The position numbers were made by a program, and so were the translations under genes. This document shows positions 6,243-64,000 of a stretch of 64,000 nucleotides of DNA, piece by piece. The notes beneath the pieces were generated by a model that was not told the origin of the DNA, ran no database searches, and was given only the letters and a program-made list of their open reading frames with translations. Within the stretch, counting starts at the first letter, position 1. The number at the start of each line of letters is the position of its first letter. Source of the stretch: Paramacrobiotus metropolitanus (Eukaryota; Tardigrada; Eutardigrada; Parachela; Macrobiotidae); NCBI RefSeq assembly GCF_019649055.1, contig NW_026570223.1, positions 558,001 through 622,000 on the forward strand, in the 5' to 3' direction.

Positions 6243-8251
6243 ATGCTCAAACGAGCTCATAGTGCCCCGGCTATTTTCGATATTTCTAGAAAGCATAGTG
6301 CTTCGCCGCTCGGTACCAGACGGCGATTTTCTTCTCTCCAGGCCCTACCAACAACAGAACAGAATTCAGCAGGACCATGCGTTCAGCGTAAGAAAGCTGG
6401 AGTATCCGCGGATAACCGACCAGCGATATTCCAGAAAGCCGTTACATTTTTGCGCATGCTGCTGTACATTTGTGACATCGGAACGGACTGGTAAGGCATT
6501 CGAACTGCCGAAAGTTTTTGTGAATATTGATATCTGTGCTTGCACTAATGCCAAGTACCAGCACATGTGATTACGTACGATAGCTTTATTTAAGTATGGC
6601 AATGTACGAAATCATATTATAAATGCCTAAAAGGTACTATCAATCCCCTGCACGTCGTATTACCAATTCTACGCAGTACCGTCTATTACAGTTATAAGAA
6701 GCATCAACCTACTTCAGTTGAAGTTGCTGCTTTTTAGGTACAATGCCGTGAGTTTGTTACTGGGGGGCCATTTTCAATGGGCTGGATTAACACTTGCGTT
6801 TATTTTGATTCCCCAGTGCGTTACAGCGTCGCGAAGTCTTATGCTGTACACCGATATTGTGGAATTTCAGCGGCAAGATATCGACACCATGGAGTCATTT
6901 GCCATACAGTCGGTTAGAAGAAATGGTTCGTGCGAAGTTGGGACTAAAGTTACGGCCACTGATATAAAAATGAAAGCTGGCAGTGGCCGGCATACCAGTT
7001 AGTAGAAAGCAGTTTTGTAAACGTAAAATTAGCAAGAAATTATAAACCTGCTGTGTAAGCCCCAACCAAACCTTTACGACATTTTTTCAGTGTCTCTACG
7101 CGCAATGTTGTCGCAAATACCAACATCAATAATCATCGCGCACATTTTTCAAATGGGTCCCGTGATAAGGTATTGTTTTGCCTACAAAAGGTGGTCACAT
7201 ACACAAAACTTAATAAGTGAACCTTCTTCTGTAGCGTTGTTTTTGTTTTGGTCGTAGGTACATCACTTACCTTCGGCATGGAGAAATTCATTGTCCTTCT
7301 ACCGATAATAGTCGTGTTACAAAATATCAGCTCATAAAATACTTGTTCTGGAAGAACACCAGTACCATCACAAAGCGTTTATGCTTACTGGAAGCTTATA
7401 TGGAGGCACTGCCGCAAATGACCTTACAGCTTTACATCTTGACAAAGCAGGATTTGGTGGAAGAGCTTTTCCGCATTTCTCACGCTGCACAATTTGCCTC
7501 CATTTTTTTCTCCCTGACCTCCGTTGCGTACGGGATTGGTTTCACCAGGCTGACGTCATTTAAAATGAGCGGTCGCAAGTGGAAGAAGTTGATCCTGAAA
7601 GTAATCCACTTGGCTGGCCGTTGGATTCTGATCGGGTTGCGCATGCTCATACTGGTTGCTTTTGCGCAGCGATTCGGGTCATACATTTTCGCTGTATTTG
7701 CAATACATGCTGCGCTGGTGACCATTGCGCTGTACTGCAACTGTTTTCCTCGTTGGAATTATTACGACCTTTTATTACTGCGTCAAGTAGATGTGACCTT
7801 TGACAGTTCTCCACATCAACTGTGGGCTTACCGATGGGAAGTCGTATGGATAAAGGCATTTATGTGGATATTCCACCCCTGGACATTGTTTTTCGATCTT
7901 TGTGCGGACGCGAGAGACCGTGAAAAGGACAATAATTTTTTATGTAAAATCGGACGGGGTACGGTTATGCTGCTTGTTTTTTCATACGGCATTTGCTTTT
8001 TGGAGAACTGCGTCTTATTGGCATTATGGTTGGTACCGTCGGAGCTGTCGTATTCACAGAAGCTGACGGTTTTTCTTTTTGCTACTATCGGATATCTGTC
8101 TGGAATCTTTCTTGTTATGATTTTCATACGGTTTAGCAAACCGCTTATCAGTAGACCTTCAAGAGGAAACTTTACACTGACGCGCTTGCAGGTGCCAGTC
8201 CATCTTTTAGTGGAACGCATTGAAGTGGCGCCCCCCGTAAGGATAGATTGA
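6243..8251 (+). CDS. XK-related (XKR/Kx family) membrane protein
   Basis: Four exons: 6243-6490, 6738-6997, 7091-7169 and 7258-8251, giving 526 residues. The frame is continuous across all GT-AG junctions. The ATG at 6243 sits in an excellent Kozak context (gccaccatg). Family landmarks appear in order: a TM segment with DIGTDW, then FQWAGLTLAFILIPQ across exon 2, HIFQMGPVIRYITYLR across the exon 3/4 joint, and LLEAYMEALPQMTLQLYIL in exon 4, followed by five or six further hydrophobic helices. XKR proteins are plasma-membrane proteins; several vertebrate members are caspase-activated phospholipid scramblases and XK partners Kell. Scramblase activity here is inference. No caspase site was identified. 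The N-terminus (about 65 residues) is basic and Ser-rich. Confidence 0.88.
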
Positions 8252-41106: not shown

Positions 41107-41398
41107 CCTACAGCAAGTGTACGATTTTACGTCATACTCGTACTGTGTTTGTATTGATCAGCATGTTGCTGTTGGATGTTGTGTTCATCAAAATTAATGC
41201 TAACAACGATTGTTTTTTTGGTTCTACAGCCAGCTGTAGATGCATGGTTCTACAGCCACCTACAGCAAGTGTACGATTTTACGTCATACTCGTTCTGTGT
41301 TTGTAATGATCAGCATGTTGCTGTTGGATGTTGTGTTCATCAAAATTAATGCTAACAACGATTGTTTTTTTGGTTCTACAGCCAGCTGTAGATGCATG
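41107..41398 (+). repeat. 152-bp tandem duplication
   Basis: 41107-41246 is repeated at 41259-41398 with only about two base differences (gtactg/gttctg, gtattg/gtaatg). Each copy contains an open stretch MLLLDVVFIKINANN followed by three Cys. No gene could be assembled around it. Confidence 0.8.
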
Positions 41399-49001: not shown

Positions 49002-49827
49002 TCACCTATTTGTAATGGAGCAACAGTAAACTATAGATGCGATAGACGCACAAAGACCCACTATCAATCCAAAAACCAAAAAGACGTTGATAGCGGCTGC
49101 TAAATTTGCACTCTGGCGCATAAAGTTTATACACTCCACTGATTTCAAAGGATCAGGTGTAGTAGTCGTAGTGGTCGTAGTGGTCGTCGTTCTGGACCAG
49201 GAAAGCAGTGATACCCAGTCGTAATCTTTCTGTTTTGGTAGACATGGATTATTATCACGACTAGGGTGTGAGAAATCGTCTGCCGTCTTGGATAGCACCA
49301 GGATAAATAGGGCTCCCAAAAAGACGCATGCGCTGAGAATCGCGCATTTAGTCAGGAATATAGACACAAACGTTCGATCTCCCGTAACCATGCATTTGCC
49401 GACAATGTACACGATCGGCCCGATGAAGGAAAGGAACACACCCAGATAAAATCCCAAGCCCATTACAGCCGTGATGCCCTGGCCATATGCTGCAACAAAA
49501 AATTCTCTATGTAAATTTTGAAATATTTTGTTTAACATGTACGTAGAATTATTTTACACGGAACCAACGTTTCTTAAAAAAATTGTATAAATAGGTAAAG
49601 CCAAGCGCTAAACAACGTAATCCATGAACATCGGGACCATATCCAGCTCGTCTCAAAGAGAAACATGGGTGCGTTAATGCAACTTTTGACTCACCGATAC
49701 TGTGGCAGACCACCAGGCAGAGGCCTACAACGGACTGCAGTATGCCTAGTAATGGCAGAACGCGCGGATAAATTGGAACGGTTTTTGGAACGGGAACGGG
49801 TACCATAGGAACAACCTGAGTAGTCAT
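49002..49827 (-). CDS. four-TM MS4A-like protein 6
   Basis: Exons (minus strand) 49695-49827 and 49002-49489, phase-1 intron, 206 residues. N-terminus MTTQVVPMVPVPVPKTVPI; TM1 LPLLGILQSVVGLCLVVCHS; exon 2 opens AYGQGITAVMGLGFYLGVFL; TM3 KCAILSACVFLGALFILVL; then a loop with a run of 11 Thr encoded by an ACN-type microsatellite, between two Cys (NPCLPKQ and VECINF); TM4 INVFLVFGLIVGLCASIAS and YCCSITNR. The Thr tract is a likely length-variable, O-glycosylated segment. Confidence 0.8.
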
Positions 49828-51719: not shown

Positions 51720-51929
51720 GCTAACAATAAACATCTTTACAAATAACAGAATTAAAGCTCTCTAATGGTAGATCCAGAATAGATCCACAGACGGAGACAG
51801 AAACGGAATCTATCCCGTAGAAGTGAGCGATACGACCTGGATCGCGAGCTATGCGGAAACACAAACGTCGCACCGTAAATCGCTGACTTTTAATAATATT
51901 GAAAGTCTGGAGAACAGAAATCAACAAGT

Positions 51930-52245
51930 GATCGGCGCAGCTCGATCGTAAAACGTAGAGCCAATTCAACAGCGTGCAACGCTGTGCAGCACGTGCTATG
52001 CCGCGCCCACTAATAAAGCGCAAGCCAATCAGAAGCGAGACACAACACAGACCGTAATCCAAAGGCGTAGCGCCTAGCGCCACGGGCGTGAACGCTAGTG
52101 AGGCCTCGTCTCACATGCCTCTGGGGGGATGCCGAGCTCTTGTGAGGCCCAACATACTCCCGAATCCACGAAAAGACGGTCGCCGGTGTCTGTGCGTGCT
52201 CGAAAACATCAAATTCTCTTATTCCATTTATCATATCACATCAAT
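51930..52245 (-). other. GC-rich block, candidate part of the 3' LTR
   Basis: This block is richer in G+C than its surroundings and has no ORF with support. On the minus strand it follows the 3' repeats of the retroelement, in the position of a terminal repeat. Inference only: the matching 5' copy is not in the window. Confidence 0.25.
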
Positions 52246-52389
52246 TCCATAAGGCACAATTCCATTTTAATACGATATGAATAAAGAGATCCAATTACAA
52301 AAATACTATCATAAAAACAGATCAACAGTTATAAGATCAACAAAAGTAATAATCAAATTGTAGACTAGGATCCTCCATTTCTGACTCGT

Positions 52390-52797
52390 AAAGGTCACAG
52401 GTCCTGTCCACCGTTTTCCGCACTTTGGCCCATTCCGCTCTGTTGAGCAATTCCGCGCATCCGTAGTGCGACTTTTCATCACAATCCGCTTGAGAATCAG
52501 GTGCGTATCAAGTACGACTTAAGAATACTGCTTCAGTCTTTGGAATAAGGTGCGTATCAATTGTACGACTTCAAATGAGATCCATAAAGGTCATGGAGGG
52601 ACGTCATGTAGACAAGCGTAGTTCGCTTCCTCCCTAGTAAAGGTCATCCTTTGTTGAGATGATCCGTTGAGATGTGCAACTCGTTTTGGGTTAATGGTCC
52701 CAAAGGTCATGCGACTTGAATTCCGATACGGTGACTCTGTTGGGCAATTGATGATCCCAAAGGTCATCCCACTCGTCAAAACTTCCATTAAAGGTCA
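52390..52797. promoter_or_regulatory. cluster of six AAAGGTCA sites
   Basis: Exact AAAGGTCA occurs at 52390, 52586, 52639, 52702, 52759 and 52790, all on the plus strand, in non-coding sequence. AAAGGTCA is the known extended half-site bound as a monomer by NR4A-type nuclear receptors (NBRE). Binding here is inference. Around them are short repeats such as catggaggga and gatccca/tggtcccaaag. Confidence 0.55.
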
Positions 52798-52914
52798 TGG
52801 AGGGACTTAGCCAATTTTCTGCGGCTTTCAAGCACTTCTTCGCTTGCCTCCCTGGTAAAATTTGCAGTTTGACCTTTCCGTCGCACATCCAACTTCAGTA
52901 TGCCTCGAGCGGCC

Positions 52915-53400
52915 AGAGTGCCGGCAAATTTACCGTAACATCTCTGATGGGGCCGGCTAATTACCGCATTAAGTTTACCCCATGAAATTTCCACCTTAAA
53001 TCTTTTACTCTTGTTCGCCGCCTGTGGCCCATGTCAATACGAGAAATCCGGCTCGATTACCGTAGTTTTTCTCGTTTCACCTTTAACACTGAGTCGCTTA
53101 AGAAGAGTGCCGGCAGAGTTTACCGTAACAACTCTAATGAGGCCGGCTGGTTACCGCATTAAGTTAACCTCATCAATATTCCACCTGTTGTCTTTCTCTT
53201 TTTCGCCGCTTGTGGCCCCGTTTCGTATTCAAGAGATCCGGCTTGATTACCGTAGTTTCTCTTGTCACTTTATAACACTGAATCGCGTAAGGAGGAGAGC
53301 CGGCTAACTGCCGTAACTACTCCCTTGGGGCCGGCTTTATAGACTGAATCAATTTCAACCCCAATAGATATTCCACATGATTTCTTTCGGCAATTCTGTG
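52915..53400 (-). repeat. 189-bp tandem repeat, about 2.5 units
   Basis: Units start near 52915, 53104 and 53294 (agagtgccggc, agagtgccggc, gagagccggc). Each contains two CCGGCT...TTACCG boxes, a ttcgccgc(c/t)tgtggcc box and an (a)gatccggct(c/t)gattaccgtag box. The third unit is cut short. It lies just 3' of the last retroelement ORF on the transcribed minus strand, so it would be in the 3' untranslated region. Confidence 0.75.
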
Positions 53401-53551
53401 CTACAATTGCTGCAACCAACAAATACACAAATACAATTAATGTTAACATGTCAAATGTCACGCCCTTTATACAACACCGTTTTTCATTTTTGTGACGTAC
53501 CGACAAAATGCCGTAGACGTCCTTTCGATAGTGTGATCCTAACGATCAACA

Positions 53552-56293
53552 CTATTCCATTTCATTTGAATCGCCCTCGCCATCTCTTGGCGGGCGTTTC
53601 TTAGCGCTTTCCGGTTGGTTTCGATCGGAAGTTCGGTCAACTGGTTCCGTCGAGTCAACTTCCATGACCTTTGTCGGGTCGACTTTGCGCTGGCCTCGAC
53701 CTTTACCTTGGCGACTTCGCTTAACCGCCTCAAGTCGATGGCGTGCGTCATTTTCTTCTAGTCGCAGTCTTCGGTTATCGGGGTCTTCCGCCGATCGACG
53801 CTGCACGTCGGCGAGATTATCCCGCAGCTGTTGGTTTCGTATGCCGCGTCGTCCCATCTGGTTAGGGGCGCGTTCCGGACGTCGGTCGCTTTTCTTTACC
53901 AGGAATTCATCGATGTACGTTTCGATTCCGTCCACCGGTTCGACGTAGTCGCTTCCCAGAGAATCTTTGATCTTATTAATCCTTTCTTCAATTTGGGATG
54001 CATGGCGCTGTATCAAGTTGCCCTTTTCCATCCGTGTCTTACACTTCTTCAGCGCCTTGCGAGCCGTATGCGCTATGCTGATGTGTTCCATCGGTTGTCC
54101 CAATTTAGCGACATGAGCTCGGAAGAACGGTGGAATGTCGTCCTTCATAGTGTTAGACACCAATTGATTCTGTGTCTTGTAATGTGCCAATCTCGCAGCG
54201 AAGACCTTTTGCCCCATCCTTTTTGCGGCATAGTCCTTCGGATCCACCTGTAATCCGATCGACGCTCTCGCAGCTAACAACTTGAAAGCTGGATTCACAT
54301 ATCGTAAAACGAACTGGGCCACGTATTCTTGTCGTTCCGGATAGTCGCGATAATAAAATTGGGTCATCCCAATTGGGTCCGTTGTTTCCAGTGGCACATC
54401 CAGTAGGCTCAAATCGACCAAACTGTGTAACCCATTCCGTCTAATAGGGAGATAGCAGTCCCGTGCCGAATCGCGGTGGATGAATAATCGACGAAAAATT
54501 CCCTTTTCTACTCCCTCTTTAATTTCTTTTGCGTAGCCCGAGTCAAGTAAGAATTGGCTCAACTGTCTCAGAATTGTGGCAATTTTGTTGGCTTCAACCG
54601 AGTCCGATTCAAGTCCAAAGTATCGACAAATTTCGACCGTTTGCTCATCAATATCAGTCGTCTTATATTCCATGTCAATGCTTTCAGGTTGTCGGTTATC
54701 AAATCTGGAGTTTAATCGGTGATCACCTTGGCGACGATTATCCGGTTCGCCTTGGCCTTCCAGTTCACGTCGCTCTCCTGACTCAGGCTGCGACGGTTCA
54801 TTACTCGTCGGTGTAGCCAGTTGAAGGTCACTATCCAAAATCACATTTCGTCGATGGGTCACGTTTTCTTGAGACGCTTCCACAATCGAGCTGGTTCCTT
54901 CCATCGCATCGTCCTCTTGTACGACGCTCACAATTGGATCCACGACGTGAACCATTGACTCCACCCGCTGATACTTTGGGGGTGAATCTTCCCGTTCAGT
55001 GCTTGATGACCTTTTGCTTGTGCCCGAGTCAAAGGTCGCATAAAATGCGGCTCCCTGTTGCCATCTTTTATCCTGTGGATCGGGTGTTCGATTCCGCGTC
55101 TGTTCGCGTCTTTTGTCCCATGACCTTTCAGGTGTTGACATTCTGACATTGCGATTCCGGAATGCAACTCCCATCGGCACCTGATGTCCTTGCTTCTCGG
55201 GTTCTGTACGGAATGTTTCCGCACGCCGTTTCTCTTCACGTCCTCTTGTGGCTGCTGAGATCTTTGCCGTGTCGATTTTCCTCTGAACACTCGTTTCTGT
55301 TACTTCATCTCCATGGCGCACCCATCCTCTTCCGCCACGGTAATCTCGGTCGCGAGAGTGTTCGCGTGACCTTTCACTGTGGTAGTCACGTGTCCTTTCA
55401 CGAGAGTGTTCGCGTGACCTTTCGCTCCGTCTTTCAGAAATCCGTTCATGTTCACGTGAATGTCCGCGTGACCTTTCTCTATGCGGAGGCGATCGAGGTC
55501 GAATGAAACCTTCGTCCCGTTTAAAACTTCTGAGTGCTTGCAGCACATCGCTTCCGGTTCGGCGAGATTTACGTAGGTCATCCATACGTCTTTCGACTTC
55601 CTTCTTTATGTATGGTGCCGGCGCGAACCCGTCTTGCAGTCGTTTCTTCTCCCGCAACAGCATTTTGAATAACTCGTCTGACATAGCAGCTGGATCTTTC
55701 GTTAACGTTTCGATTTGTATGATGAGCGACTGTCGTACAAGTTGCATTTCGTCTTCATTAAGACTGGCCATGCCCGTGGGTGCAGCTAAACCCGACGTAC
55801 TGGGCAATGCTTCCCGTGCGGCCTGTTCATTTGCTCTTTTATTTTCCGCATTAATTTTCGCTCTGATTTCATCCTCCATTTGCTGAACACGCATCTTCTC
55901 TTGATCTTCTTCAAACTTCTTTCGATACGCGTCTGTTTGTGGACATTTCAACGGTTCCAAGGTGTCATCCCAACCAGGTTCGTTGTTTCGGATCGCTTCC
56001 CGATAACGATCCTCAAATAGCATTCGCTCTTCTACTGGGATGCTGCCGTAATTTCTTGCGCTTATGAGATTTCGAAAAACGTCCAAATTCCCACGTTTGG
56101 CTTCCATGATCCCAACAAGCGTGACGGCATGTGGGTCTTCCAGCTTGTGAATACAAGTGTAGCAAGGGAATTTCTTATCAACCTTTTTGTTGTTCCGTAA
56201 GCAGTCCGGACATTTTGGATTATAGCCCGTAAACTGATCGATGTCTGCCGCCATTCCCGAACGTTTAGGGGTGGCTTGACCTTTTTGTGCCAT
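53552..56293 (-). CDS. retroelement ORF, CxxC zinc motif and RS/RE-rich region
   Basis: 913 codons, ATG at 56293 (MAQKGQATPKRSG). Residues about 27-46 hold a double CxxC (CPDCLRNNKK...CYTC), a probable zinc knuckle-like ribbon. Residues about 110-250 are charged and helical (KKFEEDQEKMRVQQ). A region at about 265-330 is made of Arg-Ser/Arg-Glu repeats (SREHSRERTRDY), like splicing-factor RS domains and nucleic-acid-binding Gag parts. The last 350 residues (VEICRYFGLESDSVEANKIA... to YVEPVDGIETYIDEF) look globular and helical, then a basic tail with NRQP and GKGRGQRK. A Gag-like RNA-binding or capsid role is inference; its position after pol is unusual. Confidence 0.7.
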   Translation of the reverse strand: MAQKGQATPKRSGMAADIDQFTGYNPKCPDCLRNNKKVDKKFPCYTCIHKLEDPHAVTLVGIMEAKRGNLDVFRNLISARNYGSIPVEERMLFEDRYREAIRNNEPGWDDTLEPLKCPQTDAYRKKFEEDQEKMRVQQMEDEIRAKINAENKRANEQAAREALPSTSGLAAPTGMASLNEDEMQLVRQSLIIQIETLTKDPAAMSDELFKMLLREKKRLQDGFAPAPYIKKEVERRMDDLRKSRRTGSDVLQALRSFKRDEGFIRPRSPPHRERSRGHSREHERISERRSERSREHSRERTRDYHSERSREHSRDRDYRGGRGWVRHGDEVTETSVQRKIDTAKISAATRGREEKRRAETFRTEPEKQGHQVPMGVAFRNRNVRMSTPERSWDKRREQTRNRTPDPQDKRWQQGAAFYATFDSGTSKRSSSTEREDSPPKYQRVESMVHVVDPIVSVVQEDDAMEGTSSIVEASQENVTHRRNVILDSDLQLATPTSNEPSQPESGERRELEGQGEPDNRRQGDHRLNSRFDNRQPESIDMEYKTTDIDEQTVEICRYFGLESDSVEANKIATILRQLSQFLLDSGYAKEIKEGVEKGIFRRLFIHRDSARDCYLPIRRNGLHSLVDLSLLDVPLETTDPIGMTQFYYRDYPERQEYVAQFVLRYVNPAFKLLAARASIGLQVDPKDYAAKRMGQKVFAARLAHYKTQNQLVSNTMKDDIPPFFRAHVAKLGQPMEHISIAHTARKALKKCKTRMEKGNLIQRHASQIEERINKIKDSLGSDYVEPVDGIETYIDEFLVKKSDRRPERAPNQMGRRGIRNQQLRDNLADVQRRSAEDPDNRRLRLEENDARHRLEAVKRSRQGKGRGQRKVDPTKVMEVDSTEPVDRTSDRNQPESAKKRPPRDGEGDSNEME

Positions 56294-56631
56294 CTTTCTC
56301 CTTCAATCTGCAATTATAAAACAATCCGTCATATTAACCTCTCCACGTTAATCCTTTCCATTCCTATCCGTTATCAAGGCTTTCTATCATTTTTACGCCT
56401 ATCCGTTACTGAGCTGAGACTTTCCTAGCTCCTGCTGGCTTTTCTATCACTGTAACGTGGTGACCTTTCTCACGTTATCAGCACTCTCTGACTACTGTGA
56501 CCTTTTCTATTAGTCCTATTGCTGCTTTCAGGTGACCTTTCCTAACACTTTTCTCTTTCGTTTTGAACTATTTTATGCTTTTTCTGTAATATGCAGGGTT
56601 CATTACTCACTGCATATTACACTGTCGACAT
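56294..56631 (-). other. spacer between retroelement ORFs with three motif copies
   Basis: This 338-nt non-coding gap contains TGACCTTT at 56461, 56498 and 56533 on the plus strand. It might hold a splice acceptor, internal promoter or ribosome entry for the 913-codon ORF; none is recognisable. Confidence 0.45.
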
Positions 56632-59517
56632 TCATTCTGCTTCTTTCTCCGGTGGTGGTAACGGTGGAAAATCTATCCGGCCATCGCTGTTGATGTGAAC
56701 TGCTTCGTCCGCAATCAAAGCTTCCACCGCATTCTTGATCCATTCCTTATCTTTCTCGATGTTCAATTCGCCCAATTCATAACGAACGGCCATGAAATTT
56801 GAAAGGTCACCCCATGACGCTCCGTTGGTACCTCCGATGGCGTCCAAAGCCACGTCTGTGATGGCTATCTTCCATGCCTCTAATACCATTGGAAGTCTGG
56901 GAGTACGCTCTCGGCCCTGTTTCGGTAGGTAATAAATGACCTTGTTGTCCTTGTTGTATTTACATCCTAGTTTCCCTTCCTTGTATGCTCGTTTCAGAAC
57001 TCTTTCGGTCATATTGAGTGACGACCTCCCCTTCGAGTTTTCAGCCACTTGTCTCTTCAGTTCGGGGCCAAGTAGTTCGCCTTCTCTGACCATCTGGAGC
57101 GTATTTTGGACTTCCTTCCATGTACGGTTGTTTACGTCCAATGCCGGCCCTAACGTGTAATCTGTAGCCTCCTTCGCTGGTGTATCGCTACTTTTCTGGG
57201 AGGATGTCGAATCCGTTGGGTCAGCTGTCGCTGTTTCGTCGATCCTCAGCTTTGCCAACGATCCTGATGATGACCCCGCTGATTTTGGTTCGGCTGTCTT
57301 CTTCTCCTCTTGCGGCAAAGTCTCTTGACCTTTTAGATCGCCAACCGACTTCGATCGTTCCTTCTCCAAGACCTCCTTTAATGGTATGAACAGTGATTTG
57401 TGAAACACCTGTCGCGCCGAATCCGCTTCAGCTTCTGCCGCTGCCTTATCCATCGGGAGCATGACCTTTTCTTTCTCCCGTTTATCTGAAGTCTCGTGAC
57501 CTTTCGGTTGAACTCCTGCGGTAGATTCCGATGTCTCTTGACCTTTCGACTGTTCGTCTTTTTCTGTCGCAGGTCCAGAAGGAGCCGTTATTGTAGTATC
57601 GTCATCACTTCCCGATTCCGAGTCCATTGGTCCTTTTTTTCTCGACACTTTCGGGGCTTGTGATTTCAACCTCGCCGCATCTTCTTCGGCCGTTTTCTGT
57701 GCGATCTGATCCAATATCGGAGTTGACGGGTCTCCGCTCAATGGGGCTGTGACCTTTTCCGTATCCTGACTGTCAGACATATGACAGTGGATCTGTCTTT
57801 CCGGTGGTATCAAACCAACTCTCGTGTATCGGATTGGATGTCCTTTATTTGCGTTTGTTGTGGCAAGGACATTCTGTTTAATCAACTTTGGCAGTACGCG
57901 TTCGGTTGCCGTGTCGATCTCCTTTATCATCCCGTTCCCATCATTCCAAACTGCGTTAATATATTGGCTAATCCGATGGCTTGTTGATCCTAACGGGCTT
58001 GTCATTCCTGCGATTGCCCTTTCTACTCGCATTGGGACCGCTTCATTCGGAGTAGTCAGCGTTTTGTCCGAACTGGCAGGTCTGAACAGCTTGGCCTTAT
58101 ACGAAAAGTTTGGGTGCTTTTGGATAAGTTTCCCTGCACTCCGTGCGAATTCCAATACAACGTCGAACTTTCGTTTAGTGAAGCTGCGACTCTGTTTCTT
58201 CAGATAAGTCTTCAGGCCCGCTTTAAATTTCGCTGTCACCGATGCTGTTCTTATTCGTGTGAAATTCTTCTCGGCTCCGTTATACGCGTTGATGATTTCA
58301 TCGACCGTGGTCAAATTGTCGTCGTCTGAACCATCGAACTCTTCATCTGAGGTGAAATCCAGTTCACTCTCTCCATCTGGTTCAGTGTAATTGATCATTG
58401 CCATTGCGTCGACTTTTATGGCTGTCTTGACCTTTCCTTTTGTCTTAACGGGTTCGCTCTTTGCTTTTTGCCCTTTATCCAGTGCGTCCGCTAAGCTCCT
58501 TGGTTCAGTGGTTCTTGATCGTGTCGTTTTCGAATCCGCATGTGACCTTGCACTGACCGTCGAGGTGCTTGCAAGGCTCACTTCCGATGCCTCCGATTCA
58601 CGCGACGTCTCCCGTTTCGCTTTTTCGCGGATCTGTTTGTCCTTGCGCTCTTTTGGCGTGGATGCAGAGATGACGATGGGGACAACTTGTTTCACTGCTA
58701 TGACCTTTCCTTTGGGTTTTGATGGCTCTGCTGTAGCCGATTGGATAACTTTCTTTGACTTCGTAGGTGTCGATGACCTTTCTTCAACTTCGCCAACTGA
58801 CTCGTCCAATATCTCAACGTCATGAGACGCTGGTTCGTCTCTTTTCTTTGATCCTTCCCTTTTCTTCTTCCCGGTGCTTGTGCTATCGCTTTCATCACCG
58901 CTCTTTTTCTTCTTATCTTCTTCCTCCTGTCGTTTCTTCTTCTCTTCTTCCTCCCGTCGTTTCTTGAGGAAATCGCCTTTCTTAACCTTGTCACGGTTCA
59001 TGGCCACTTCTAATCTGGGCGCTTTCCTCGGTTTGACTTTTGAGGGCTTCACTTTTGAGGGCTTTTTATGCTTGTCGGCCGTTTCTTCGTCTGAGCCTTC
59101 TTCCTCAGGTGGGTTATTGTCTTCCGACTCTGGTTCGTCGTCACCAGGTGGATTACAATGGGCACAGTTTGGTTCATCACACTGAAGGTGCTCATGACTT
59201 CCTTGGGCAATCTCGAGTACTCTTTGTAGCGAGCGTCTGGCCCCTCCTGTTTCAGTTACATTTGCCGACGTGCCCTGCGCCTCTTCCGTCTCTCCGGCTC
59301 CGCCTTCTTGTGCCGGGGGATGAATTTCCAAGTGTCTTGTCTCTTTCGGAGATCCCTGTGAGGCGACCTCCCACAAAGGGTTCTTCTTAGCGTCGTAAAA
59401 TACCGTTTTGTACGTTCCGTCTTCCATTCGTCTTGTGAGTCGGAAATGTGCTCCATCGATCTCCGCTCGATGCCGCATCATGCTAATGAGTGTGCTTGCT
59501 TGCTTGAACCACGGCAT
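56632..59517 (-). CDS. retroelement ORF with acidic/Lys-rich core and C-terminal winged-helix-like end
   Basis: 961 codons from ATG 59517, overlapping the preceding ORF by 35 nt in another frame. The N-terminus (ISMMRHRAEIDGAHFRLTRR) continues a domain whose first copy lies in the 720-codon ORF. Residues about 130-390 are low-complexity Lys/Glu/Ser (KKRQEEEDKKKKSG). A globular stretch follows at about 410-600 (AYNGAEKNFTRIRTASV ... ERVLPKLIKQNVLA). The C-terminus, about 877-950, has spacing like a linker-histone H15 winged helix: ALDAIGGTNGASWGDLSNFM, a helix KEWIKNAVEALIADEAV and a final SDGRIDF strand. That resemblance is judged by eye. Function unknown; DNA or nucleoprotein packaging is an inference. 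Confidence 0.65.
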   Translation of the reverse strand: MPWFKQASTLISMMRHRAEIDGAHFRLTRRMEDGTYKTVFYDAKKNPLWEVASQGSPKETRHLEIHPPAQEGGAGETEEAQGTSANVTETGGARRSLQRVLEIAQGSHEHLQCDEPNCAHCNPPGDDEPESEDNNPPEEEGSDEETADKHKKPSKVKPSKVKPRKAPRLEVAMNRDKVKKGDFLKKRREEEEKKKRQEEEDKKKKSGDESDSTSTGKKKREGSKKRDEPASHDVEILDESVGEVEERSSTPTKSKKVIQSATAEPSKPKGKVIAVKQVVPIVISASTPKERKDKQIREKAKRETSRESEASEVSLASTSTVSARSHADSKTTRSRTTEPRSLADALDKGQKAKSEPVKTKGKVKTAIKVDAMAMINYTEPDGESELDFTSDEEFDGSDDDNLTTVDEIINAYNGAEKNFTRIRTASVTAKFKAGLKTYLKKQSRSFTKRKFDVVLEFARSAGKLIQKHPNFSYKAKLFRPASSDKTLTTPNEAVPMRVERAIAGMTSPLGSTSHRISQYINAVWNDGNGMIKEIDTATERVLPKLIKQNVLATTNANKGHPIRYTRVGLIPPERQIHCHMSDSQDTEKVTAPLSGDPSTPILDQIAQKTAEEDAARLKSQAPKVSRKKGPMDSESGSDDDTTITAPSGPATEKDEQSKGQETSESTAGVQPKGHETSDKREKEKVMLPMDKAAAEAEADSARQVFHKSLFIPLKEVLEKERSKSVGDLKGQETLPQEEKKTAEPKSAGSSSGSLAKLRIDETATADPTDSTSSQKSSDTPAKEATDYTLGPALDVNNRTWKEVQNTLQMVREGELLGPELKRQVAENSKGRSSLNMTERVLKRAYKEGKLGCKYNKDNKVIYYLPKQGRERTPRLPMVLEAWKIAITDVALDAIGGTNGASWGDLSNFMAVRYELGELNIEKDKEWIKNAVEALIADEAVHINSDGRIDFPPLPPPEKEAE

Positions 59518-61645
59518 CTTTTCGGTCGCTTTCAGGTATCAAATCCCATAACTGGTCGATGGCTGCCTGATTCGCATTTCGGGCGCTCTCTTCTGATACA
59601 TCCCATGGGGCATATGGAATCGGGTCTCCTGTTATTGGGTCGACTATTACTGCAGTTATGGTTTCCACCGCTTCTCCATTACTAGCGAAAAGTCTGAGGG
59701 TGACCTTTCTGCTTGTCGCCTCTGTATATCTCTGGACCGACTCATAATCATCTGACGATCGTTTCTTCGGATCTGGATCCGCCGTCGGTTTTGAACGAGT
59801 TCTTTCTTTGGTCAACAATTTGCCGTCCGTTGTGTATGTATATGCCAAGTGGTCATCATTTGTGCCCACTTTGATACGGATCCATGCATCTTCGTCAGTC
59901 GCAACTTTAGATACCACGTGCTTCATCATCTGAATGATAACTCTTGGGTTATGATGTTCTTCTGGGGGAATAAACTGTAGCGCCTCGTTAACTACCGTTT
60001 TTGACTCTTCCCCAATGGCATCCTTAACTGACCTATCCGCGAGGGGATTATACGAGTCGATCTCTTTATTTGTTTTCTTGTCAACTATTCGTGCGGTGAC
60101 CTTTCGTTCTTTATGGTCTTCCCCAGTGTATTTGGCAGTGAAACTTCTACACTTCGGGAATCGAATCTGACCTTCTGTTCCAACTGGTGTGGGTGGCGCA
60201 CTCTTTCTACCCACTGGGACTGGGCCTTGTGGCTTTGCCGGCTCAGCTGGTGTTGCTTTACCTGACGTGGCCTTCTTCGTTCGCTGCCCTTTCTTGTCAG
60301 TTTCTTTTGGGCTTATCGTTGGTGACCTTGCTCTTTTTCCACTCTTCGTGGCTCCGCTAGATGGTTCTGTAACCGAACTAGTGCGTCCACGTATTGATCC
60401 TGCGGTCGAGCTGGCCCGTGACCTTTCTGCTCGTTCAGTTAACTCGGCATCAATCTTTCTCTTTGTTGCCAACAGGTCCTCGTCCGTCATTTCATCGACC
60501 GGGGCGTCCCTTTCAGCTATTGGTTTGGATGGTCCCGCGACGCTGGTAGTCGGCGTCTGTCTTGTTTCTGGGAACACCTTGAGATATCGAAGGATCTTTT
60601 CGACAGTCTCCGGCCACCTTCTACCTTTTATTGTCGGGTGATATTGCCACATCGATGCAACTTGGATTGCGTATTCCTTACGCTTTGCTTCAACCTGCTT
60701 CGTCTTATCTTTCATGGCAATGTGGCATGGTTTGATAACAGCTTCCAAGCTGATTAACTTTCCATACCATGCGTGTTCGTCTTCAACTCGCATGTGGATT
60801 CTGTAAAGGTCACGGCATTTCCGATTGAAGTCGCGAATGGCTTCTAAATCGGTTTCCGTCAGTTTTTCCTTTTTATCCACGATTAAATTCAGGTTTGGGT
60901 CATCGTCCCTCAAGTCCAAAGGGAGCTTCGGTGCGTATTCGTGTAATGAGGGTTCGCCTGGGGGCGTAAGCCGTAAGCCATCTGGTCCAGTCTGCTCCAA
61001 GTTGGGACCCAGTGACGGTAGAATGCCTCTCGGTCGCCTTCCTCCTCTGTGTGGCGAATTACGATGAGGGCGCTGCGCTCCAAGTTGCTGCGGTGTTCTC
61101 ATGCGAGGCGCTCCGATGTCCGACAGTGACAAGCCTCCCGTCTCCGGAAAAGGCGGTAATATCGGAGATGACCTTTGTGATCGCGCTGGAGTTACCATCA
61201 TTCCGCCGAATCCTCCCTGTCCCGTAAATCGGCTCGGTGTAGTCTGTTGTGGTGGCGGCATTAGCATTCTTGCCGGTCCCATTATCACCTGCGATGATCC
61301 CGGTGGGGTGTACGATCCCGGATACGGTTGATAGGGGGCGCCCATCGCTTGTCCCGAATACTGGGTTCCGGCAGGTGAGCCGTGGTGCACCCAGTTAACC
61401 GTGTCCTGATAACTCGTCTGCTGTCCTGGATCGTGATACACGTAATACCCCTGGCCGCCATAGTAACCTCCTTGACTTGTTCCAGGTTCATTCTGAGCCG
61501 TTCCCACTGACGACGTTGATCCTTCACCATATGAGGTGTCATAACCGTATTCACCTTCCATTATTATAGGTGTTGATGCTTTTAGTGGGTTTCCAATACT
61601 TTCCGAGTCTGAATTATCCGAGTTTTGTCGTTCCAATCTGTCCAT
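59483..61645 (-). CDS. retroelement ORF with Gly/Pro/Tyr-rich N-terminus and repeated domain
   Basis: 720 codons from ATG 61645 (MDRLERQNSDNSDSESIG). Residues about 30-240 are Gly, Pro, Gln and Tyr-rich (GGYYGGQGYYVYHDPGQQ), prion-like or Gag-N-like. A helical part follows (DLEAIRDFNRKCRDLYRIHM ... WYGKLISLEAVIKP). The C-terminal 220 residues contain a domain once complete (KVTARIVDKKTNKEIDSYNP ... IIQMMKH ... WIRIKVGTNDDHLAYTY) and a second time up to the stop (ITAVIVDPITGDPIPYAPWD); the missing end of the second copy is encoded in the other frame by the start of the next ORF. No enzyme motif seen. Probably structural. Confidence 0.65.
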   Translation of the reverse strand: MDRLERQNSDNSDSESIGNPLKASTPIIMEGEYGYDTSYGEGSTSSVGTAQNEPGTSQGGYYGGQGYYVYHDPGQQTSYQDTVNWVHHGSPAGTQYSGQAMGAPYQPYPGSYTPPGSSQVIMGPARMLMPPPQQTTPSRFTGQGGFGGMMVTPARSQRSSPILPPFPETGGLSLSDIGAPRMRTPQQLGAQRPHRNSPHRGGRRPRGILPSLGPNLEQTGPDGLRLTPPGEPSLHEYAPKLPLDLRDDDPNLNLIVDKKEKLTETDLEAIRDFNRKCRDLYRIHMRVEDEHAWYGKLISLEAVIKPCHIAMKDKTKQVEAKRKEYAIQVASMWQYHPTIKGRRWPETVEKILRYLKVFPETRQTPTTSVAGPSKPIAERDAPVDEMTDEDLLATKRKIDAELTERAERSRASSTAGSIRGRTSSVTEPSSGATKSGKRARSPTISPKETDKKGQRTKKATSGKATPAEPAKPQGPVPVGRKSAPPTPVGTEGQIRFPKCRSFTAKYTGEDHKERKVTARIVDKKTNKEIDSYNPLADRSVKDAIGEESKTVVNEALQFIPPEEHHNPRVIIQMMKHVVSKVATDEDAWIRIKVGTNDDHLAYTYTTDGKLLTKERTRSKPTADPDPKKRSSDDYESVQRYTEATSRKVTLRLFASNGEAVETITAVIVDPITGDPIPYAPWDVSEESARNANQAAIDQLWDLIPESDRKDAVVQASKHTH

Positions 61646-61771
61646 TAACTGTGCTTACCTTCTATAAAACGAAACAATAAAGGTTAACTTTTTGCACAGT
61701 GGTGACCTTTCTTTTTGCCTTCCCAACTCCTATTTTTAATTTAGTGTGACCCCTTATTTATGTCTATGTGG
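61646..61771 (-). other. 126-nt spacer between pol and the 720-codon ORF
   Basis: Non-coding, holds one TGACCTTT (61703). Too short for an LTR. Confidence 0.5.
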
Positions 61772-64000
61772 TTATTTGTTCTCTCGTCCTTTAGTTATCC
61801 GATCAAGAAGTTCCTTCTCGGCTGCATCCTCAGGTCCGCCTTTTTGGGTCAATAAGTCCGTAGGGGTCGGTTTCTTTTTCTTCTGTTTGACTTTCCGCTC
61901 GTTAATTGCTTTCGCTATATCACGGCCCAATTGTTCAGCTTTTGATTTGACCGCTTCTATCTCCTCTTCTCTCTTTTTTATGAGGTCATTCTCATAACCG
62001 GTAACAGTGCGTGGTTCGAAAAAATTCGGGTCACGCTCTGACATCTCACCGTCCGTACGCTGTTTCGAAAGGTCATCCTTATCTTCGGTAGCAGTGCGTG
62101 GTTCGAAAAAGGATTGTTGCAGGTCCTTTTTGGAGGTACGCTCTGGTACTTTGGAGGTCGGTTCGTTGTCTTGTTCCAGTGACCTTTCTGCCAAATTACC
62201 AGCCTCTGCGTTCAACTTGATTGTGACTGCTGTTTCGAAATCCTTATCCTCTTTCCGCTTTCTTCCTCTTTTCTTTGTAGGTTTGTCTTCCTTTTCCATT
62301 TCAGGTAGCAGAGGTGGTTCGAAAAATTGATTGGTACAATTTTTTGAAGCATGCTCGGTTTCTACCATTTCTTTTTCGTTCGACATTCGTTGCGAATCTT
62401 TCTCTTCGGGTAATGGTGGGTGCCACGGCTTGAACCGATCAATCGAAACCACTTTTAGATCCGCTTCCTTCTTCGGATTCTGTTCGATGACCTCCGCTTC
62501 ATTTGTTCGCGGGAAGCTAAGAATTTTCCACACTTTATCGTATTTCGACTTGAAATCTGACTGGTTTTCTTTCTTCCCCTGTTTCGTATCTTTTGGAAGT
62601 CGTATAAGTACCAAATCGCCCACTTTGAAGTTCGGCTCCGATTTCTTCTTATTATAAATTTCCGCATTTTTCTCGTATGCATCTTTAATATTGCATTTGG
62701 CTACTTCTTCTGCAAAGGTCAAGTTCTTCTTCATGGTCTCCACCCATTCGTCTGGAGTCCCATAATCATCGGGTATATTCGTTTTTGTGACTACATCTTC
62801 CGGCATTGTCATCTCTCTGCCGTGTAGCATATAATATGCTGAATATCCCGTTGTGGCGTGCACGACTCTGTTCATCGCCGAAATAACATATGGGAGATAC
62901 TTGTTAAACTTTCGTTCATTTCCCGCTTTTAGGTATTGCGCCAAACCATCAGCAATCGTCTGCATCTGTCTCTCCACTTGGCCTTGACCTTCTGGATGAT
63001 ACGCCGTTCCAAATGTGTGTTTAATCTTAAACACATTTGTGACCTTTGTCAGTACTTCAGCCGTAAAGTGCCGTCCCCGATCCGTGTGTAGGATGTGCGG
63101 TGCTCCGTGTACCAATATCACGTGCTTCACGAACACTTTAGCGAATTCTTTGGCCGTTGCCGTCTTCATTGGTACCGCAATCACATATTTCGTCAGTTGA
63201 TCAATAAACACCGCTATGTATTTATATCCACGTTTCTTGGTCGGTAACAAAGGTCCTTTCAGGTCAGCGTACACTCGAAAGAACGGATGTCCCACTTTAA
63301 TCTCTTGCAGTTTTCCCGGTGGGCATTTTCTTGGTGTCTTGCGGAACTGGCAACCTTGGCAGGCGAGTATGTAATTCTTCACATCTGTACTCATCCTGTC
63401 CCAGTAGTATCGGAGTCTTATCGCTGACAATGTCTTTTCGAATCCCAAGTGACCTGCTGCTTTCTCGTCGTGCAATGCGTGGATTATAGCTCTTCGCATT
63501 GACAACGGTACCACATATGACCTTTCAAGTCTCCCATTCTTATCTTTTACCCGGTACAATATGCCGTTCCACAACTGGTAATGTACTTCGAATTTCGATC
63601 TTGTTTCCGCATCTGGTAGATGTTCCAATTCGTCTATAATCATCGCCAGATGAGGATCTTTTAACTGTTTATTCCGCAGCTGCAGATTCGAGTCATCCTC
63701 TTCTTCTTCGTCGCCTTGCAGGTTAACAATGCGGACTGTCGCTGTACTGAGTTCGTTCCAATCTCTGATGACCTTGCAGCGTGGTAACGGTTTGTACCTC
63801 TTTTTCATCTGTTTTGGAAATCTCAGCAACTTAATGGGACATTCGTTCAACGCTTGTGTAACTTTGTCCGTTTCCCAAAGGTCATCTCTCTTCTCCGCTG
63901 CTTCATCGAGTCCAGTGACCTTTCCATTTTGAACTTCGGCGTCTATTTCAAGTCCGGTGACCTTTAAGTCACTAACGGTGGGCAACCAACTTTTTACACG
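61772..64000 (-). CDS. Ty3/gypsy-type pol, integrase part (5' end outside window)
   Basis: The frame is open from the window edge to the stop at 61772; no true start is expected here as RT and RNase H should precede. The HHCC zinc domain is seen as HDEKAAGHLGFEKT and ILACQGCQ. The catalytic core follows with D (YADLKGP, about 63266), D (HTDRGRHF, about 63075) and E (GQVERQM, about 62980), spaced as in retroviral-type integrases. A GPY/chromo-like C-terminal module includes NFKVGDLVLIRLPK and VSIDRFKPWH. A 190-residue charged extension after it carries three FFEP motifs (QFFEPPLLP, SFFEPRTAT, NFFEPRTVT). The core is uninterrupted with all catalytic residues present. It would insert element DNA in the nucleus. 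Confidence 0.9.
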   Translation of the reverse strand, partial: RVKSWLPTVSDLKVTGLEIDAEVQNGKVTGLDEAAEKRDDLWETDKVTQALNECPIKLLRFPKQMKKRYKPLPRCKVIRDWNELSTATVRIVNLQGDEEEEDDSNLQLRNKQLKDPHLAMIIDELEHLPDAETRSKFEVHYQLWNGILYRVKDKNGRLERSYVVPLSMRRAIIHALHDEKAAGHLGFEKTLSAIRLRYYWDRMSTDVKNYILACQGCQFRKTPRKCPPGKLQEIKVGHPFFRVYADLKGPLLPTKKRGYKYIAVFIDQLTKYVIAVPMKTATAKEFAKVFVKHVILVHGAPHILHTDRGRHFTAEVLTKVTNVFKIKHTFGTAYHPEGQGQVERQMQTIADGLAQYLKAGNERKFNKYLPYVISAMNRVVHATTGYSAYYMLHGREMTMPEDVVTKTNIPDDYGTPDEWVETMKKNLTFAEEVAKCNIKDAYEKNAEIYNKKKSEPNFKVGDLVLIRLPKDTKQGKKENQSDFKSKYDKVWKILSFPRTNEAEVIEQNPKKEADLKVVSIDRFKPWHPPLPEEKDSQRMSNEKEMVETEHASKNCTNQFFEPPLLPEMEKEDKPTKKRGRKRKEDKDFETAVTIKLNAEAGNLAERSLEQDNEPTSKVPERTSKKDLQQSFFEPRTATEDKDDLSKQRTDGEMSERDPNFFEPRTVTGYENDLIKKREEEIEAVKSKAEQLGRDIAKAINERKVKQKKKKPTPTDLLTQKGGPEDAAEKELLDRITKGRENK

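Follow-up and report, generated by a model that had tools for sequence, protein, structure and literature searches.

An octamer identical to the NR4A monomer site saturates giant Ty3/gypsy-type retrotransposons of the tardigrade Paramacrobiotus metropolitanus

The last 12 kb of a 64,000-nucleotide stretch of the Paramacrobiotus metropolitanus genome (contig NW_026570223.1, positions 558,001 to 622,000; referred to as the window) belong to a giant long terminal repeat (LTR) retrotransposon that is filled with exact copies of one octamer, AAAGGTCA. Comparison of this element (copy A) with its relatives elsewhere in the genome makes it as good as settled that selection acts on the octamer as a DNA word. 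The binder that we predict for it is an NR4A-type nuclear receptor of the host.

Density of the word and selection on it

Exact counting gave 40 copies of AAAGGTCA between positions 52390 and 63965 and seven in the other ∼52 kb of the window, which are the figures (40 and about seven) of a preliminary description of this DNA. The window total of 47 compares with a mean of 2.72 and a largest value of 7 in 100 dinucleotide shuffles. The word is the most frequent 8-mer of the region, and the runner-up, AAGGTCAC (22 copies), overlaps it. The full copy A has 95 words in 24.45 kb (3.9 per kb), 74 of them within seven open reading frames (ORFs), and mapping them bore out the earlier claim that they fall in every codon phase, on either strand and also in the spacers. 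The word is not equally dense elsewhere: outside the element the window has seven words in 51.76 kb (∼0.1 per kb), four 6 kb stretches at arbitrary sites hold one word in total and an ORF at 1693–4572 resembling a long interspersed nuclear element, with a reverse transcriptase (RT) domain and a weak endonuclease match, holds none. The genome-wide count that the preliminary description had proposed gave 42,562 copies versus 15,522 for the reversed word; if confined to such elements, the excess would correspond to ∼285 complete elements, which would make up 4% of the genome. The word is also sharply defined, as copies A, B and C together contain 249 words versus 0 to 16 of each of 24 one-mismatch neighbours; the base that follows it in these copies is C in 135 cases, T in 63, A in 43 and G in 8. 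The other copies and part-copies contain 76 (A2), 108 (B), 100 (B2), 46 (C) and 43 (D) words, or 2.4 to 5.2 per kb, densities that represent a biased sample, all five being on contig C1 and chosen for visibly dense words.

Synonymous codons were shuffled 2000 times within each of the seven ORFs of copy A, leaving the proteins unchanged. The 74 observed words compare with a shuffle mean of 5.8 and a maximum of 15, and by strand there are 59 sense and 15 antisense words versus 5.3 and 0.5 after shuffling. Selected ORFs of other copies (1000 shuffles) gave sense and antisense counts of 45 + 3 observed versus 5.9 + 0.1 shuffled in B, 31 + 6 versus 2.7 + 0.2 in B2 and 9 + 0 versus 1.1 + 0.05 in C, while the ORFs of a sister lineage, E, have 0 words versus 0.15 + 0.03. 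The word shows the largest excess among all 8-mers in the ORFs of copy A (74 versus 5.5 shuffled); in the list of largest excesses, the first other 8-mer to pass an overlap filter has 8 versus 1.2, and none that passes it is above 9.

Words are kept between copies far more often than 8-mers in general. Between A and A2 (82.7% identical where aligned), 65 of the 81 words of A and 65 of the 70 of A2 are kept, versus 26% of any 8-mer. The corresponding values are 17/21 and 17/23 versus 12% for A and B (76.5% identical), 18/27 and 18/21 versus 13% for A and C, 9/15 and 9/10 versus 10% for B and C, 96/105 and 96/98 versus 69% for B and B2 (94.4% identical) and 8/13 and 8/8 versus 11% for A and D. 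A footprint over 88 words of the A/A2 alignment has identities of 0.92–0.98 at the eight word columns versus a background of 0.83, with flanks of 0.72–0.90. Where a codon specifies the same amino acid in both copies and its third base falls in a word, the codon is identical in 175 of 187 cases versus 3080 of 4792 elsewhere (A versus A2), 48/50 versus 697/1392 (A versus B) and 53/61 versus 922/1716 (A versus C). The amino acids in words are just slightly more conserved than those elsewhere, with 187/207 versus 4968/6058 (A versus A2), 50/56 versus 1455/1846 (A versus B) and 61/77 versus 1788/2316 (A versus C). The accessory ORFs of A and B are 24–44% identical in the stretches that are still detectable and the gag region 30–48%, with the word unchanged.

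Within ORFs, conservation is about equally good for antisense and sense words (10/15 and 45/59, respectively, in A2, 6/7 and 12/16 in B, 5/10 and 13/22 in C and 3/3 and 2/6 in D), and the same-amino-acid word codons are identical in 31/37 antisense and 144/150 sense cases (A2), 17/18 and 39/40 (B), 18/23 and 43/46 (C) and 8/8 and 11/13 (D). The function of the word in the coding body would thus be independent of the RNA strand, which argues for double-stranded DNA. The preliminary description had held that the word and not a peptide is under selection, and had named codon-shuffled controls and alignment of copies as checks; the shuffles fall well short of the observed count, and words are kept while neighbouring synonymous sites drift, with the A/A2 footprint pointing the same way. 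Its 'DNA or RNA word' can be narrowed to the DNA level, or at least to a word that acts in both orientations.

In an RT tree, copies A, A2, B, B2, C and D group together (support 0.998) beside lineage E (support 1.000, 11 of the 12 E loci taken), the RT of which is 68% identical to that of A. The 12 E loci (L031–L042; 62 kb) contain one word in total; they are the loci closest to P0002, members 62–70% identical to P0002 having been left out. As in A, the integrase of lineage E is followed by an accessory ORF, open for at least 999 residues in L053, and 3 kb of this ORF contain zero words. A different saturating word in lineage E was considered and rejected, as none of the eight commonest 8-mers per ∼5.2 kb locus exceeds 6 in the 12 loci. 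Judged from these sequences, saturation most simply arose after the split of A–D from E.

Structure of the element and layout of the words

The region at 52390–63965 is the 3′ half of a minus-strand element of 24,447 bp (from coordinates on contig C3 of the 169.8 Mb assembly, which contains the window), with the remaining ∼12.2 kb beyond the window end. It is a Ty3/gypsy-type LTR retrotransposon, with paired LTRs, a target-site duplication (the 4 bp GAGC at both ends) and Pfam matches in the order protease, RT–RNase H, integrase. TGGTAGCAGAG, immediately inside the 5′ LTR, is a candidate tRNA primer site, which we take to be a match to initiator tRNA-Met. The features are as follows, in window coordinates unless a contig or locus is named.

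51761–52115, minus strand: 3′ LTR, 355 bp, without the word, GAGC flank; its sequence is 100% identical to that of the 5′ LTR
52116–53551, minus strand: 3′ noncoding tail with seven words, six antisense to the element; ∼190 bp tandem repeat at 52915–53336
52390–52877: terminal array of seven words, at 52390, 52586, 52639, 52702, 52759 and 52790 on the plus strand and 52870 on the minus strand
53552–56293, minus strand: ORF913, without a Pfam family; N-terminal CxxC...CxxC pair; seven words, all sense
56461–56540, minus strand: spacer upstream of ORF913 with three sense words
56632–59517, minus strand: ORF961, without a Pfam family in this copy; nine words
59483–61645, minus strand: ORF720, without a Pfam family; five words
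61646–61771, minus strand: spacer with one sense word, at 61703
61772–63985, minus strand: integrase ORF (Integrase_H2C2 and rve), 737 residues or more, frame open past the window end; eight words
63986–64000 onward, minus strand: element beyond the window, continuing through L009 into L010
L009:1–1917: RT–RNase H ORF, 639 residues
L009:1921–6723: protease ORF, 1601 residues
L009:6654–9998 and upstream: gag-position ORF, 1115 residues or more
L010:1–1852: region of the 5′ leader with nine antisense words, followed by the 5′ LTR
C3:633853–634207 (L010:1853–2207): 5′ LTR, 355 bp, GAGC flank

The gag-position ORF matched SWIRM-assoc_3 alone in Pfam, below the cut-off (E = 0.03). The closest relatives of the integrase ORF are annotated P. 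metropolitanus proteins, and all relatives found for ORF961 and for ORF913 come from this species (about 8000 candidates scored for each). The sense strand of the element is A-rich: the AT skew on the plus strand is −0.25 to −0.38 over 54001–64000, unlike the rest of the window.

The orientations of words in leaders, tails and spacers were read by eye from the word coordinates. Tail arrays are antisense to the element in 6/7 (A), 5/6 (A2), 6/6 (B) and 6/6 (B2) words, and leader arrays in 9/9 (A, before the gag frame), 7/7 (B) and 8/8 (B2); in each of A, A2 and B, three words, all sense, lie in the spacer that precedes ORF913 or the corresponding ORF. Words avoid each other at short range. Among 240 gaps in A, B and C, three are under 20 bp versus 18 expected, and 69 are of 20 to 60 bp versus 32 expected. 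Genome-wide there are 701 same-strand pairs with 0–15 bp between them (44 per gap length; reversed control 36) and 4230 with 16–46 bp (136 per gap length; reversed control 33). This deficit fits bound proteins that exclude each other, with the proviso that tandem repeats also feed the genome-wide counts. No signal of a 10.5 bp helical periodicity was found in 181 pair distances under 160 bp.

Candidate binders and competing explanations

The octamer is the published monomer site of NR4A receptors, NBRE, as the preliminary description had recognized; the match to the string in the introduction of PMC4777543 is exact, while the discussion of that paper prints another string. The host has an NR4A gene in locus L052, in which stretches are 92% identical over 26 and 80% over 46 residues to the domain of human NR4A1 and RTDSLKGRRGRLP is unchanged; the human domain used for this comparison itself matches 1cit. 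By this sequence comparison, the genome encodes an NR4A receptor orthologue. The counts of first-base variants in copy A are 95 with A (AAAGGTCA), 8 with C (CAAGGTCA), 6 with G (GAAGGTCA) and 4 with T (TAAGGTCA), and so strong a preference for A fits NR4A rather than ERR/FTZ-F1, the consensus of which is TCAAGGTCA. The extended sites of ERR/FTZ-F1 and of Rev-erb were rejected on the first-base and TAGGTCA counts.

Of 100 places with word arrays, all on contig C1, 11 were not assignable to the giant family by inspection, and three of these 11 belong to one unrelated gypsy-type element (L046, L049; C1:2894001–2903200) with an RT 37% identical to that of A. In the ∼9 kb read, five sense words precede the ATG of this element, another lies near the start of the ORF and one more is found in the 8 kb that follow. 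The presence of the same word in several elements suggests a host factor. The preliminary description had allowed for either a host or a self-encoded DNA-binding protein, serving transcription, chromatin packaging, self-recognition or replication; taken together, the NR4A orthologue, the array in the unrelated element and the near absence of the word from the E loci lean towards a host factor.

We propose that giant (∼24 kb) Ty3/gypsy-type elements of one clade accumulated the word to about 4 per kb and that purifying selection keeps it, synonymous codon positions included; a host NR4A-type receptor would bind along the element and, once bound, would keep so long a unit accessible to transcription and/or shield it from silencing in germ cells. 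That the binder is such a host receptor is predicted with moderate confidence. That this receptor is recruited to help the expression or accessibility of the element, which supposes both the binding and a benefit from it, is put forward a little more tentatively. A bolder version, possible but distinctly more doubtful, is that the whole 24 kb body, genes included, is a tiling array on which the receptor, in germ cells, forms an anti-silencing coat over the entire body; the same factor would then be tapped by several unrelated mobile elements of the genome, and selection for the coat would rewrite synonymous codons and shape disordered parts of the element proteins.

Several points weigh against the proposal of a recruited NR4A-type receptor. 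Eight LTRs (from copies A, A2, B, B2 and D, and thus not independent) are without any word, and the U3 region of an LTR is the usual place of promoter sites. One would not expect ordinary transcription to require ∼95 sites spread over a coding body. Antisense ends combined with sense inner spacers form a polarity that is unexplained by a simple orientation-free model. Recognition of the word by the receptor is deduced from the octamer itself, which may also be a target of other receptors of the host. The comparison copies were selected for their words, as stated above; between B and D the contrast is at its weakest (20/31 and 20/24 words kept versus a background of 53%), and the A/B and A/C footprints (27 and 30 words) are noisy, though in the same direction, with one A/C word column at 0.79 and single flank columns of up to 0.96 (A/B) and 0.89 (A/C).

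The alternative that survives best, although we consider it rather unlikely, is that the element encodes its own word-binder (ORF720, ORF961, ORF913 or the gag-position ORF), which would coat its copies and counter silencing or mark self, as VANC does. The large accessory ORFs, with relatives of ORF961 and ORF913 confined to this species, would suit this explanation, as would the Cys pairs of ORF913 that are common to copies A and B and the exclusion of sister lineage E from the saturated clade; VANC21 motifs, as far as the available text of PMC5735166 describes them, similarly form dense same-orientation arrays and are rare in other elements. However, the accessory ORFs of A and B have diverged (24–44% identity) around an unchanged word, and the unrelated element also has an array, a point weakened by the fact that an unrelated element shares the motifs of VANC6 targets too (PMC5735166, available text). 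An ORF961 paralogue, P0052, weakly matches linker histone H1/H5 (E = 2.4e-4, 21.7 bits versus a cut-off of 22.4), and a linker-histone match is found in two of the seven members of sequence alignment A3 (best 0.0019), but for ORF961 of copy A a Pfam search up to E = 5 gives no match, and a profile comparison with H1 (control: the unrelated sequence alignment A2, of ORF913) gives the first domain no support and the C-terminal domain weak support. Although one paralogue hints at it, a linker-histone domain in ORF961 was thus rejected as unsupported by profile comparison. Profile searches of the PDB gave one unrelated match for alignment A3 (E = 0.53) and three Arc-type matches for alignment A4 (best E = 0.013), and were not used.

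It is improbable that the word acts on the free 24 kb complementary DNA (cDNA) as the site of a coating protein for compaction, protection or nuclear entry. Selection at the DNA level, independent of orientation and over the whole length, agrees with such a role, as does the short-range exclusion in word spacing, yet the LTRs belong to the cDNA and are without the word, the sister lineage, also with a long accessory ORF, manages without it in the examined loci, and the words of the unrelated element lie mainly upstream of its ATG. Slightly less probable again is an action in RNA, in which sense AAAGGUCA of the body would pair with UGACCUUU of the leader or tail, or Gag would bind for packaging. 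The leader and tail arrays are indeed complementary to most body words, but orientation makes little difference to how well words in ORFs are kept, a sense excess in ORFs is what codon constraint predicts (5.3:0.5 shuffled, 59:15 observed) and the upstream words of the unrelated element are in the sense orientation. An artefact of codon bias, base composition, a repeated peptide or duplication of one stretch is very improbable: some clusters are tandem copies (55353–55423 and the tail repeats), but the codon shuffles, the three frames, both strands, the mixed flanks, the synonymous conservation and the lack of any other non-overlapping 8-mer above 9 among the largest excesses over codon shuffles all oppose it, and peptide selection or duplication as the main cause was rejected on the three-frame spread and the codon tests.

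Comparison with known systems and other occurrences

On the available text of PMC5735166, the closest described system is that of VANC and the VANDAL21 and VANDAL6 elements of Arabidopsis, in which a short exact motif is likewise packed into one element group and rare elsewhere. The dense VANC21 arrays in one orientation resemble the leader and tail arrays seen here. The VANC motifs are, in that text, mainly in noncoding tandem repeats, whereas 74 of the 95 words of copy A are in seven ORFs and are kept at synonymous sites; the target motifs of VANC21 and VANC6 differ, whereas the same word occurs in all lineages of this animal LTR retrotransposon that were examined, with a binder that is predicted. 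Giant gypsy elements are already known, namely Burro and Ogre (PMC6431247). The planarian Burro has a gypsy-type core, an internal region of >20 kb and extra coding capacity in common with the element described here; it has BIR, MATH or ankyrin domains, none of which was found among the seven ORFs by Pfam at the thresholds used, the LTRs of the present element are, unlike those of Burro, only 355 bp in length, and the available text of PMC6431247 does not mention word saturation.

Among the papers listed by literature searches, none was seen to deal with a retroelement filled with such a word or with a giant tardigrade element. PMC11191345 yielded nothing on NR4A, nuclear receptors or transposition, and PMC11071193 nothing on Paramacrobiotus or giant elements. 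An NBRE is usually a regulatory site in a single or a few copies, not one of ∼95 through a coding unit. Bacterial DNA uptake words are also dispersed exact words kept in coding and noncoding DNA; their biology is different, and the present word belongs to one clade of animal mobile elements.

The element offers a short word under purifying selection through the coding sequence of a mobile element, and its density and sharpness make the binder and the effect directly testable; sister lineage E is at hand as a control when expression and chromatin are studied. Should the word be a binding site, anti-silencing by motif arrays would reach beyond the noncoding DNA of transposons in plants (DNA transposons) to entire retroelements in an animal, and roughly 27,000 excess sites in a 170 Mb genome would be likely to affect the host factor's own targets.

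The word also occurs in recurrent short units with paired words (of the AAAGGTCATCCACCTTTCTG and AAAGGTCACGTGGCGACCT types), plus and minus copies of which lie about 0.5–4 kb apart; these are perhaps the ends of inverted-repeat elements. Their positions include the following.

C1: paired-word units at 566902, 567695, 4319390, 4319871, 1543687, 1547784, 2686083, 2688826 and others
C6: paired-word units at 2485993 and 2486693
C7: paired-word units at 413480 and 416445

A further array, which packs four words into ∼150 bp of AT-rich sequence (L043:428–580, in C1:331501–332500), matches none of the compared loci and has a possible minus-strand ORF beside and partly overlapping it; it may represent either a regulatory array of the host or the remnant of something old. 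Elsewhere in the window there are about two tandem copies of a 152 bp unit at 41107–41398 (98% matching) and host ORFs for an XK-related protein (7343–8251) and a CD20-like protein (49002–49553).

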